A model generated the notes under the pieces. The model searched no databases and was not told the DNA's origin. It saw only the letters and a list, made by a program, of their open reading frames with translations. Below are positions 956 through 4,447 of a stretch of 52,029 bases of DNA, in pieces. The stretch covers positions 1 through 52,029 of the forward strand of contig SIBF01000007.1 of the NCBI GenBank assembly GCA_009695275.1, read 5' to 3'. Each line of letters starts with the position of its first letter. Within the stretch, counting starts at the first letter, position 1. A program made the translations under genes and the position numbers. The DNA comes from Pedosphaera sp. Its GTDB lineage: Bacteria; Verrucomicrobiota; Verrucomicrobiia; Limisphaerales; F1-12-MAGs170.

Positions 956-1486
956 CTACTGGGTCATATCTTCCATGAGCGACAAAGCGGTCGCTTCGCA
1001 GACTTCCCGCACATCGAAATAATGAACATTCGCGCAGTCTGCTTGTCCGGGAGTGATCCCTCCTTGCGTTCTCGAATGCGGCAGTTGTTTTTGTTCGTCG
1101 CTTTTTGCGCCTGTGTCACTTTCGCGCCGTCGCCAGTCGTGCGCGTAGTCTCCGAGTGCTCGGTGCGGACTGAAAGTTTCAACCCGGTGGAATAATCCCC
1201 CAGCTCACAATTCACAAAGATCAACATTCGAGGTGACACCGTTTTTGCAAACGCCTCTTTGAATTTCCCAATGACCATCTGCGCCTGTTCGAGCGTTACC
1301 AAAAACGAATGTCCTGGCGCGGGCCGTTGCTCGTAAACGTAGGCACCGGCCAGAGGTGGGGAGATGTTACTGGCGGCGGCAACGACCGGAGGAAGGGGCG
1401 GCAGGATCCTTCGCAACGCGTTTCCGGGCGGCTGCGGACAATGCCACTCCGGCAATCATCAAGTAGAGAACGCTTGGCGTTTTCAT
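956..1486 (-). pseudogene. Frameshifted relic of a secreted envelope protein, last gene of the lpoB operon
   Basis: Three collinear pieces read on the minus strand in two frames. From the ATG at 1486 comes a signal-peptide-like start, MKTPSVLYLMIAGVALSAAA. After a frame change near 1425 comes a good coding stretch, PPLAGAYVYEQRPAPGHSFL and then RMLIFVNCELGDYSTGLKL, running to about 1040. The first frame then resumes with HYFDVREVCEATALSLMEDM and stops at 956-958. Taken alone, the middle piece is a 163-codon ORF with an implausible start and tail. The terminal pieces read as a natural signal peptide and C-terminus, so I read this as one gene broken by two compensating shifts, probably with loss of internal sequence. 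I cannot name the family. It follows ycfL by about 40 bases, so it was probably a fifth member of the operon. Two sequencing errors are an alternative. Confidence 0.6.
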
Positions 1487-1523
1487 ATCAGGAAATTTCT
1501 TCAATCCATGGCGAAGGACATGC

Positions 1524-1934
1524 TTAACGAGCCTGTCGCACCCGGATCGTGTACTTGGCCGCTTGATTGTTCATCGAAGTAAATCTCGCGGTTTCCTGGC
1601 CGTTCTCGGTGAGGAAGAACGATTGAAACGGCGTGCTATCAACTACGAAGCCTTGGGCATCCTTGAACTCGCAATTGATCTGCACCTGAACCCGGCGGTT
1701 CTCGCGATTGCGGACATTCGCAGCCACCTCCAGCCGCCCGTCCGGCAGTCGCTTCTCCTGAATGCCGGAGGATGTGACGGAACGTTGGACGCCGGAATCG
1801 AGGAGGACGAAGTTCAACTGGTTTTCGTAATCGTACTTGGTGGCGTTCACCGGCGGCTTCGCGCCCGGCGATTGGCATCCAGCCAGGAAGAGACTCGCGG
1901 CAAGTGAGGCGATGAGCAGAAGGTTTTGTTTCAT
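1524..1934 (-). CDS. ycfL: YcfL-like (DUF1425) lipoprotein
   Basis: A 136-residue predicted lipoprotein. MKQNLLLIASLAASLFLAGC is a signal peptide ending in a LAGC lipobox. The mature part has the fold seen in YcfL/DUF1425 proteins: a beta-rich segment RRVQVQINCEFKDAQGFVVD followed by a hydrophobic turn and a C-terminal AAKYTIRVRQAR. The ATG overlaps the TGA of the upstream COG3014-like gene (ATGA at 1931-1934), which indicates translational coupling. In E. coli ycfL is the immediate neighbour of lpoB, and here an LpoB-like gene lies one gene upstream, which strengthens the call. The function is not established; a role at the outer membrane near peptidoglycan synthases is inference from the neighbourhood. 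Confidence 0.8.
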   Translation of the reverse strand: MKQNLLLIASLAASLFLAGCQSPGAKPPVNATKYDYENQLNFVLLDSGVQRSVTSSGIQEKRLPDGRLEVAANVRNRENRRVQVQINCEFKDAQGFVVDSTPFQSFFLTENGQETARFTSMNNQAAKYTIRVRQAR

Positions 1935-3109
1935 AATGGTTTTGAAGTTTGCGAGTGGTCGCTGACGAATACAACCGTGTCGCGCGGTTCGGGCGCGACG
2001 TTGAGAGTCACCGTTTTGGTGAGCCGGGGAATGATCATGCCCATGGAATCAAGGAATTCCACCGTCGCGAGATGCTGCCCTGCGGGCAAAACGGCTGCGG
2101 CAAAACTCAAATACTGCGGCAGCGTCTCCCAGCAACGCGTATCCGCTGCCGGAGTCGTAGCGGACGAAATGATCTTTCCCAGCAGGCCTGCCGCGACCAG
2201 TCCCAGCCCCACCTCGCGCGTGTTTCGATTCTGGGCAACCACGATGCCACTGACGAGCGCCGCAGTCCCCACGGCGTCAGTGGCGGACTTGAACACAGCC
2301 TTATTGGCAAGCACGTGATCCATCACGCGTCCTCCACGAGTGGTAGCCTGGAAGTTCAGGTCGTCGTAAGGGGCCAGCAAAATGATCTGCTCTCCGACCA
2401 TGAGACGTGCGGAATGCACAGCCGACGGAACCGTGCGAAATCGAAGTTCCTCGCCGTCGCCGCCTGTGGCGTATTTCGTCGGACCTTTTCCAAACTCGAC
2501 GAAGAAGAGAACATTGGCTTTGCTGTCGTAAGGCTGCAGCGCCCCTCCCTTGAAAGTCGATTGAGCACGTTTCAGCGCGTCGGAACCGTCGCCGGCGAGT
2601 TTCGTCGTCACCAAGCCATCAAGGTAGTCGAGCAGAACGAAGTCGCCTGCATACTGCTTGTTCTCGACATCGCCATCTTGAAACTGCGCGTTACGAAAAC
2701 AAGCCCTGGCGTTATCAGGCTCGCCGTCCATCCAGTAGAGAATTCCGCGATAGTAATTCGCCATCGCTCTCTCGTAAGGCTCTCCACGAAACGCCTTGCG
2801 AGACTCCTCCTGAAAGTAGCCCCGTGATTTCCTTGCTTCCTTGTCGCCCGAAGAAATCGAACCCACGGTGAGGAGTGCATCATCGAGCAGGGATTTTGCC
2901 TCAGTGGTTTCGCCGCGCCGCATTGCCGCCAGCGCCGTCCGGTATTGCCACCACACTTTGTCCCTGGCTGGGCCGCCGGCAATGGCCGTCTTGCCGTCTG
3001 TCACCGCATCTCCCGTCGGAGTCCACGCCGATTTGGCGGGTCTCGAACTGACGCAACCAGACAGCGCCAAACCGAGAGAACTGAGCAAAAATAAATGCCG
3101 GAATTTCAT
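1931..3109 (-). CDS. COG3014-like lipoprotein with helical repeat region
   Basis: A 392-residue predicted lipoprotein. The N-terminus MKFRHLFLLSSLGLALSGC is a signal peptide with lipobox LSGC. Residues 50-180 are helical and repeat-like, with segments such as EPYERAMANYYRGILYWMDG and NARACFRNAQFQDGD that resemble TPR units. The C-terminal half is beta-rich with a glycine/alanine stretch (TAALVSGIVVAQNRNTREVG). COG3014 proteins are commonly encoded next to YcfL and LpoB in Gammaproteobacteria, and the same trio occurs here. The gene lies 21 bases after the lpoB-like gene and overlaps ycfL by four bases. The biochemical role is unknown; an outer-membrane partner of the LpoB-like protein is inference. 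Confidence 0.8.
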   Translation of the reverse strand: MKFRHLFLLSSLGLALSGCVSSRPAKSAWTPTGDAVTDGKTAIAGGPARDKVWWQYRTALAAMRRGETTEAKSLLDDALLTVGSISSGDKEARKSRGYFQEESRKAFRGEPYERAMANYYRGILYWMDGEPDNARACFRNAQFQDGDVENKQYAGDFVLLDYLDGLVTTKLAGDGSDALKRAQSTFKGGALQPYDSKANVLFFVEFGKGPTKYATGGDGEELRFRTVPSAVHSARLMVGEQIILLAPYDDLNFQATTRGGRVMDHVLANKAVFKSATDAVGTAALVSGIVVAQNRNTREVGLGLVAAGLLGKIISSATTPAADTRCWETLPQYLSFAAAVLPAGQHLATVEFLDSMGMIIPRLTKTVTLNVAPEPRDTVVFVSDHSQTSKPL

Positions 3110-3130
3110 CGAAGCGCGCCTTCCCTTGCT

Positions 3131-3766
3131 CTAGCGGTAAGCCGCGTCTTCCAATCCCTGCTTTTTGATCTCAGCCTGATCTTCCCAAATAATGTCGCTT
3201 GTTCGAGCATCCACCAACTGGAATGTGTAAAGAACGTAATCGCTGGTGCCCTTCGATGTTCTTGTGGACAAGCCCTGAAGTTTGCCCGTGAGGAAGAAAT
3301 CTGCCCCCTTAAGCTCAACCACCTGCGGATCGCTGCTGCTGGTCACCTGACCGGATCGCTTCAAATCGCGCTCTCGCTCCAGAGCAGCCATCTGATCGCG
3401 CGCGAGGAACCGGACTTTACCCGCCGCCTTCGTGTTGAGTTCCGCGCGAATCTTTGTGAGGAAAATTCCCTTGTTGATCGGGAACCGCGTCTCGTTCTGG
3501 ACCGGCTGCAGTACGATCCGAGGAATTCCCTGCGCACCGGCTATTTCCGGCGTCTTCAAGATGCTTCGAGCCATCTTGTCAGCCACCGTTACAAGATCCT
3601 GTGATTCGACGCCAGTTCCGGCAACGAATCCGCGCTCGTCACCTTTCATCTCGGTGACCGGCACGCCCGACGGATTTTGAACGCCGGTCGAAGCGCAACC
3701 CGCAAGCAATGCGGCAACGACGGATGAACTGATCAATTTCATTTTGTTGGAAAGAATTGTTTTCAT
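3131..3766 (-). CDS. lpoB: LpoB-like penicillin-binding protein activator lipoprotein
   Basis: A 211-residue predicted outer-membrane lipoprotein of the LpoB/CsgG-like fold. LpoB of E. coli reaches through the periplasm to stimulate the peptidoglycan synthase PBP1B. The signal peptide ends at the lipobox LLAGC. The core contains VTVADKMARSILKTPEIAG, the strand PRIVLQPVQNETRFPINKG, the motif VRFLARDQMAALERERDLKR, and the terminal strand pair LYTFQLVDARTSDIIWEDQA. The start could be 3766 or the internal Met at 3742 (MKLISSSVVAALLAGC); the latter gives a more usual signal-peptide length. It is the second gene of a minus-strand operon after the glycine-zipper gene (45-base gap). No matching synthase gene is in the window, so the partner is not known. 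Confidence 0.85.
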   Translation of the reverse strand: MKTILSNKMKLISSSVVAALLAGCASTGVQNPSGVPVTEMKGDERGFVAGTGVESQDLVTVADKMARSILKTPEIAGAQGIPRIVLQPVQNETRFPINKGIFLTKIRAELNTKAAGKVRFLARDQMAALERERDLKRSGQVTSSSDPQVVELKGADFFLTGKLQGLSTRTSKGTSDYVLYTFQLVDARTSDIIWEDQAEIKKQGLEDAAYR

Positions 3767-3811
3767 AAAATTCAGGTGCGGACTTCTAGCGACTCCATCG
3801 CAGGAGTCAAT

Positions 3812-4447
3812 TCATCGGCCGAAGAGGGCGTTTGCCGCGGACATGCGTGATGGTAAACCGGGCTGAACTGCATTTGGCTTGGTGCCTGATTCAGGTGCAG
3901 GAGTCTCAGCTGCGGGAACTGTCTGCGCCGTCGCCATAGTTTGTTTGATTGCTGGCACATAAACCATGGGCTCAATAGTTCCTGGAACCCGCTGCATCAT
4001 TGTCCCTCGGCGAGCCGCATCATCTGCAATGGCACCAAGCGCAAATCCACCAGCCGCGCCAATCGCCAGGCCTTCCGCGGTCCTCCGACCACTATTGTGT
4101 CCGATGATTCCACGGGCAATCCCTCCCAAAATCGCTCCGTTCAACGTCTGGCCAGGCTGCTCGACATACAGCGGGTAATCGGTGCCGGAATAGTAGCCCG
4201 GAGAATAACCCGCGCCCGGGGATCCTTCAAGAGCACTGATGGCAATGGCACCCAGCAATAAACCGGATCCGGCCCCAATCCCAATACCTTCAGCCGTCCG
4301 ACGACCGCTGTTGTGCCCGATCGCACAGCCGATCAAGCCTCCGATGACGGCGCCGCTCAAAGCATCCGGAGGGAAAATCTGCGCTTTAGCGGGCCGCACA
4401 ACAACCAGAGTTAGTAACACCAGAAAACCTTGTCTAATAATTCTCAA
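3812..4447 (-). CDS. Secreted glycine-zipper protein with two internal repeats
   Basis: A 211-residue protein beginning with a signal peptide (LVLLTLVVVRPAKA before QIF). It carries two near-identical units: AIGHNSGRRTAEGIGIGAGS around residues 42-61, and IIGHNSGRRTAEGLAIGAAG around residues 113-132. Each is preceded by a Gly-rich hydrophobic stretch (GAVIGGLIG, GAILGGIARG) and followed by another (LLLGAIAISAL, FALGAIADDA). This is the glycine-zipper pattern of membrane-inserting outer-membrane proteins. The tail is Pro/Ala-rich. The start is TTG at 4447, as no ATG gives the full signal peptide. It opens the lpoB-COG3014-ycfL operon, so an envelope role is likely. Its first codons overlap the end of a small upstream ORF (stop at 4434-4436). 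Confidence 0.75.
   Translation of the reverse strand: MRIIRQGFLVLLTLVVVRPAKAQIFPPDALSGAVIGGLIGCAIGHNSGRRTAEGIGIGAGSGLLLGAIAISALEGSPGAGYSPGYYSGTDYPLYVEQPGQTLNGAILGGIARGIIGHNSGRRTAEGLAIGAAGGFALGAIADDAARRGTMMQRVPGTIEPMVYVPAIKQTMATAQTVPAAETPAPESGTKPNAVQPGLPSRMSAANALFGR

Follow-up and report, generated by a model that had tools for sequence, protein, structure and literature searches.

What does an operon built around an LpoB-family lipoprotein do in a genome of the Verrucomicrobiota? In E. coli, LpoB is an established activator of PBP1B and binds the UB2H domain of that enzyme; LpoB and UB2H have been described as confined to enterobacteria and as having evolved jointly (PMC3060616). The window studied here, a stretch of 52,029 nt, is the entire contig of a metagenome-assembled genome (G000) that is 66% complete. 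It contains an operon of four intact minus-strand genes, in the order glycine-zipper protein (GZ), LpoB-like, COG3014-like and YcfL-like, followed by a decayed fifth gene, designated X:

3812..4447, minus strand: glycine-zipper protein GZ, 211 aa, TTG start, two zipper blocks, C-terminal ...ANALFGR
3131..3766, minus strand: LpoB-domain lipoprotein, 211 aa, lipobox Cys24, C-terminal GLEDAAYR
1931..3109, minus strand: COG3014-like TPR lipoprotein, 392 aa, lipobox Cys19
1524..1934, minus strand: YcfL/DUF1425 lipoprotein, 136 aa, lipobox Cys20, PF07233 match
956..1486, minus strand: decayed gene X, an N-terminal piece and the last ~20 residues, with no continuous frame between them

A preliminary description of this DNA had proposed LpoB-, YcfL- and COG3014-like genes with overlaps and short gaps, headed by a glycine-zipper gene, and the layout bears this out. 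GZ and the LpoB-like gene are separated by 45 nt and the LpoB-like and COG3014-like genes by 21 nt, while the COG3014-like and YcfL-like genes overlap by 4 nt. The interval proposed for the operon, which ran down to 956, does contain the four named genes, but its end (1486-956) holds the remains of the unnamed X. Lipoprotein signals are present in the LpoB-like, COG3014-like and YcfL-like proteins (LLAGC, ALSGC and FLAGC, respectively); GZ carries an ordinary, type I-like signal peptide without a lipobox. A promoter scan detected nothing promoter-like on the minus strand, and terminator-like sites were fewer than the chance mean. The gene arrangement recurs in related genomes, which makes the operon more than a product of chance. 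In the window, it is flanked by a methyltransferase gene of the ubiE type (PF01209, 212.8 bits) and by a divergent gene matching PF00793, which we take to be of the kdsA type. Reading the sequences of relatives revealed recurrent hisF/hisI/trpE-like genes upstream and a ubiE-like gene downstream; these flanks were taken as lineage synteny and give no clue to function.

The LpoB-like protein matches Pfam family PF13036 well over the cut-off (79.4 against 22.3 bits), in agreement with the family originally assigned to it, but remains below the cut-off of the NCBIfam equivalog for the PBP activator LpoB (TIGR02722, 67.7 against 110.55 bits). Its family profile matches LpoB structures from E. coli and Salmonella (E 5e-9 to 2e-8) and also reaches PelC (E 0.0043), and the match of the CsgG model PF03783 is confined to a short part of the protein (25.5 bits). 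A lipobox pattern was found in 66 of 74 LpoB-like relatives, with LLAGC at residues 20-24 of the window copy. From the lipobox Cys to the LpoB domain, as placed by the Pfam start, there are 33 residues in the window copy compared to 52 in E. coli. In the LpoB tree, the window copy lies with its verrucomicrobial kin, and a 96/93 branch separates it from LpoB of E. coli and of Aeromonas; the analysis carries long-branch warnings, for E. coli above all. The final eight residues of these proteins (GLEDAAYR type; window 3131-3160) are near-invariant, being identical in 44 of the 74 relatives and ending in YR in all 74.

Against Pfam, the COG3014-like protein returned TPR models alone, all of them under the cut-off. 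An iterated family HMM, by comparison, detected proteins of Sphingomonas (E 2.9e-69), Aeromonas (E 2.1e-28) and Azospirillum (E 1.8e-24), and the single sequence alone matched the Sphingomonas homologue at E 1e-33. Judged by these sequence matches, the protein is homologous to the gene found beside YcfL and LpoB in Proteobacteria, and it is called COG3014-like here. The name COG3014 itself was not found in the literature searched. The predicted structure (pLDDT 84.4, pTM 0.82) comprises a domain of TPR helices, a beta domain, a long helix pair and C-terminal beta strands. Compared to PDB entries, the match was limited to the TPR part (residues 29-194; Z 11.4, rmsd 2.7, 121 aligned), and none reached E 1e-3 or below. 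The YcfL-like protein exceeds the PF07233 cut-off (35.9 against 28.3 bits), as its proposed family required, and a published table lists DUF1425 among the families with an Ig-like fold (PMC8877628). In the accessible portions of the literature found, no joint function of LpoB and YcfL is described. A natural fusion of the two was encountered as one 294-aa frame (L043:3450-4334, genome G129), beside a further LpoB gene and a YcfL gene, and ties the two proteins to each other. Loci of the f17 type contain gap genes (~155-190 aa) that look YcfL-like by eye; none of the four tested had a Pfam match, and these genes were left out of the YcfL counts.

The distribution of the set was surveyed in two samples. 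In a draw of 288 Verrucomicrobiota genomes, a one-sequence search with the COG3014-like protein found the gene in 33. Among the 33 loci from the other 32 genomes, LpoB lay beside it in 31, and YcfL was detected in 13. The PF13036-type LpoB domain occurred in 193 of the 288 genomes; LpoB-domain genes are ordinary in this phylum. The second sample comprised named relatives, of which the best 80 of 435 were kept; 76 were titled verrucomicrobial and four "bacterium," consistent with the placement of the set outside Proteobacteria made at the outset and, as the nearest named relatives show, with the verrucomicrobial host then proposed. Of the 54 loci with enough flank among these 80, a sample biased toward near relatives of the window, all 54 had LpoB and all 54 had YcfL, while GZ was found in 28 and X in 25. 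Proteobacterial plasmid records of Sphingomonas, Marinobacter, Azospirillum and Aeromonas contained the trio or part of it, the whole trio being found in Aeromonas, Azospirillum and Sphingomonas. The preliminary description was therefore right that the trio occurs in Proteobacteria and that the set is wider and conserved. The uncharacterized YcfL and COG3014-like proteins thereby gain a stable genomic context. One genome (G018, L033:2800-10560) has two tandem COG3014-like/YcfL/LpoB sets, one per gene order. The operon is also present in bins titled Akkermansia muciniphila (L075, L086, L098, L117, L135, L139 and L153); these titles are probably wrong, and at least one of the genomes measures 7.3 Mb (G288).

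Whether this operon activates a class A PBP, a partner implied by the preliminary description, was addressed through the glycosyltransferase domain GT51 (PF00912) and UB2H. Near-complete carriers were available in eight genomes of the phylum draw (99-100% complete), all of family f5, which have both GZ and X, with the COG3014-like gene last in three of them. The family is called Opitutaceae-type here by inference, two loci titled Opitutaceae (L149 and L154) falling among its rows in the tree. GT51 was detected in none of these eight, and UB2H exceeded its cut-off in none of 12 genomes tested, while the eight genomes encode two to four transpeptidases (class B PBPs) and two SEDS genes each. The implied partner is not supported, and the reading of the operon as a PBP1B activator was rejected for the Opitutaceae-type carriers; in these respects, and in falling short of TIGR02722, the operon differs from the LpoB-PBP1B system of E. 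coli. The best UB2H match in the window's own, 66% complete genome scored 24.5 bits against a cut-off of 27; it lay in a 701-aa frame and covered no more than positions 1-43 of the profile. Several of the partial matches below the cut-off fell in frames of ~700 aa or ~1100-1300 aa, probably UvrB and Mfd, which share the domain type. Of the 104 genomes in the phylum draw that have GT51, none belongs to f5, so that the whole family seems to be without class A PBPs.

Beyond this family, GT51 and LpoB overlap in part. GT51 was present in 8 of the 33 COG3014-like carriers of the phylum draw and, for the named loci, in 12 of the 50 genomes covered (50 of the 80 loci). Across the 288 genomes, 57 had LpoB and GT51, 136 LpoB alone, 47 GT51 alone and 48 neither. 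Within the window's class, LpoB was found in 26 genomes and GT51 in 45; G000 and G078 alone have both, and lineage shapes this pattern. A PBP role may exist in some of the GT51-carrying lineages, to which the 57 genomes with both belong. The GT51 gene of G000 is a single copy, frame-broken over two frames (L069:1318-3464), beside a gene that reads like alpha-2-macroglobulin; from this neighbor, we assume that its product is perhaps PBP1C. Both the broken X of the window and this split GT51 gene could reflect gene decay or assembly errors.

Opitutaceae species have been reported to possess peptidoglycan (PMC5303756), and some bacteria are known, the PVC group included, that have SEDS/bPBP pairs but lack class A PBPs (PMC8406291); the accessible text of the latter contains neither "opitut" nor "lpo," and nothing on class A PBPs was found in the accessible text of a review of PVC division (PMC5147048). 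The set could be conceived as a regulator of peptidoglycan synthases whose target, instead of PBP1B, is a class B PBP/SEDS pair or, in genomes that have one, the single GT51 enzyme. The LpoB domain over the Pfam cut-off, the SEDS proteins and transpeptidases of the carriers and the precedent of E. coli LpoB all speak for such a role. UB2H, the known docking domain, was however not found over its cut-off in the 12 genomes tested, the shorter Cys-to-domain stretch would give less reach through the wall, and the window LpoB stands apart from the E. coli and Aeromonas proteins in the tree, long-branch warnings included; we consider this role unlikely. In genomes without a class A PBP, the set probably does a different job. 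Because an LpoB-family operon is conserved where no class A PBP is detectable, the family names cannot be read as PBP activation, and the origin of the LpoB switch becomes testable.

The two remaining genes bracket the core. GZ matches PF13441 in two stretches at 27.7 bits, just under the cut-off of 28.9. In the window, the start and a signal-like piece of X lie in one frame and a long N-terminal piece in another, and ~115 codons of the middle are missing compared to intact X of L075, L076 and L078; the pieces match the X HMM at E 5e-44 and 9.9e-10. Intact X proteins of relatives measure ~245-350 aa, and the two copies scanned had no Pfam match of note. Among the 54 fully flanked named loci, 23 had both GZ and X, 24 neither, 5 GZ only and 2 X only. 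X followed the zipper gene in 23 of 23 loci with a right flank when the zipper ended in (L/M)FGR and in none of seven when it ended in PDAP-x-(F/Y), a tail type largely confined to one clade. X without a detected zipper, despite a long left flank, was seen in L093, L115 and L119, the last of these outside the 54-locus set. On the COG3014-like tree, the zipper-tail and X traits each change 11 times; there are four supported independent pairs, of which 3.4 agree on average and none disagree (median p 0.25), too few for the tail/X linkage to reach significance. GZ and X are two linked optional members around the core. The "added glycine-zipper gene" of the preliminary description is therefore present but is not a lone addition. 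X adds a family of likely partners that has no name yet, and its link to the peptide tail of the zipper protein can be put to the test.

These patterns also bear on the view that the genes are merely co-transcribed envelope lipoproteins that share no complex. Many loci do without the zipper and X, and X has decayed in the window, as that view would allow; strict retention of the core, the YcfL-LpoB fusion and the zipper tail/X linkage argue against it, and we regard it as very improbable.

A profile-profile comparison (hhalign) of X with LpoB found nothing, and X was rejected as an LpoB relative on this basis; the only match of the X profile among solved structures, TraK at E 0.096, was likewise set aside. 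The structure predicted for X is weak (pLDDT 60.4, pTM 0.50). Its Foldseek list had no match at E 1e-3 or below (best E 4.5e-3) and was dominated by the CsgG/PelC/TolB-N/LpoB class, including the FlgT/LPHT ring, HpaA, PelC, GNA1162, CsgG and, at rank 37, LpoB. Pairwise comparison gave Z 8.6 with CsgG 6l7a (rmsd 8.8, 165 aligned) and Z 8.2 with PelC 5t10 (rmsd 4.0, 115 aligned), values in the range that the tool calls common. The matches are weak but consistent, and the predicted model suggests that X probably has a fold of this class.

Such an alpha/beta fold, which X would probably have in common with the outer-membrane exporters of curli (CsgG) and of Pel polysaccharide (PelC/PelB), raises the prospect that the operon specifies a machine for export or surface assembly comparable to CsgG or PelB-PelC. 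In it, lipoproteins of this fold and the TPR protein would form a collar in the periplasm, with the zipper protein as substrate or pore. A TPR partner is present here as in PelB. The CsgG and PelC matches of the X model, the contact of the LpoB profile with PelC and the linkage of zipper tail and X are in keeping with such a machine. Unlike those exporters, the operon has neither a barrel nor a known exported substrate; none of its proteins shows an outer-membrane beta-barrel, the CsgG model spans a short stretch of the LpoB-like protein alone, and X and the zipper are missing from many loci that keep the core. Taken together, we judge such an exporter to be quite unlikely. CsgG-DUF4810-DUF799/GNA1162 is another operon of three lipoproteins of similar folds; its families differ from those found here, and GNA1162 is on the Foldseek list of X. 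LpoB, CsgG and PelC were not found together in the literature searched.

The reading that we favor, at a probability of roughly 0.45, is that the operon specifies an assembly of lipoproteins on the outer membrane, of older origin. The core would consist of the LpoB-fold lipoprotein, the TPR/beta COG3014-like lipoprotein and the Ig-like YcfL lipoprotein, all three placed on the outer membrane, bracketed by an optional module of a secreted, (L/M)FGR-tailed zipper protein and secreted X. The proteins would form one complex in which X may read the zipper tail, and the assembly would serve envelope upkeep or export rather than activation of PBP1B. The E. coli LpoB-PBP1B switch would then be a later, derived use of the same lipoprotein family. 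A bolder and rather doubtful extension holds that the machine predates class A PBPs and does not depend on them, that E. coli retains a stripped-down remnant of it, YcfL-LpoB, recruited to PBP1B at the time UB2H arose, and that the verrucomicrobial set carries an export/assembly module in which X recognizes the (L/M)FGR tail.

The gene order of the window can be compared with known arrangements. In E. coli (hinT-ycfL-lpoB-thiK-nagZ), as in the window, genes of the YcfL and LpoB families lie together, and LpoB there also exceeds the PF13036 cut-off. Unlike in the window, no COG3014-like, zipper or X gene directly adjoins the E. coli pair, although ycfJ, a glycine-zipper gene, lies ~4 kb away. 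The Sphingomonas locus (L071) has LpoB, COG3014-like and YcfL genes in the order of the window, plus an X-like gene whose match to X is weak (E 0.0017). Marinobacter has the end of a COG3014-like gene, YcfL and a gene that is X-like by position and motif alone. In Aeromonas (L074) and Azospirillum (L073), in contrast, the order is COG3014-like, YcfL, LpoB, and no zipper gene was found there. The Aeromonas record with the trio also encodes a UB2H protein (98.9 bits). This Aeromonas caviae record, filed as a plasmid, measures 4.94 Mb and looks like a chromosome; its trio, at L074:5278-8239, is unannotated. After its trio, the Azospirillum record encodes a DUF6844 protein (PF20891, 86.1 bits; L073:8142-9488).
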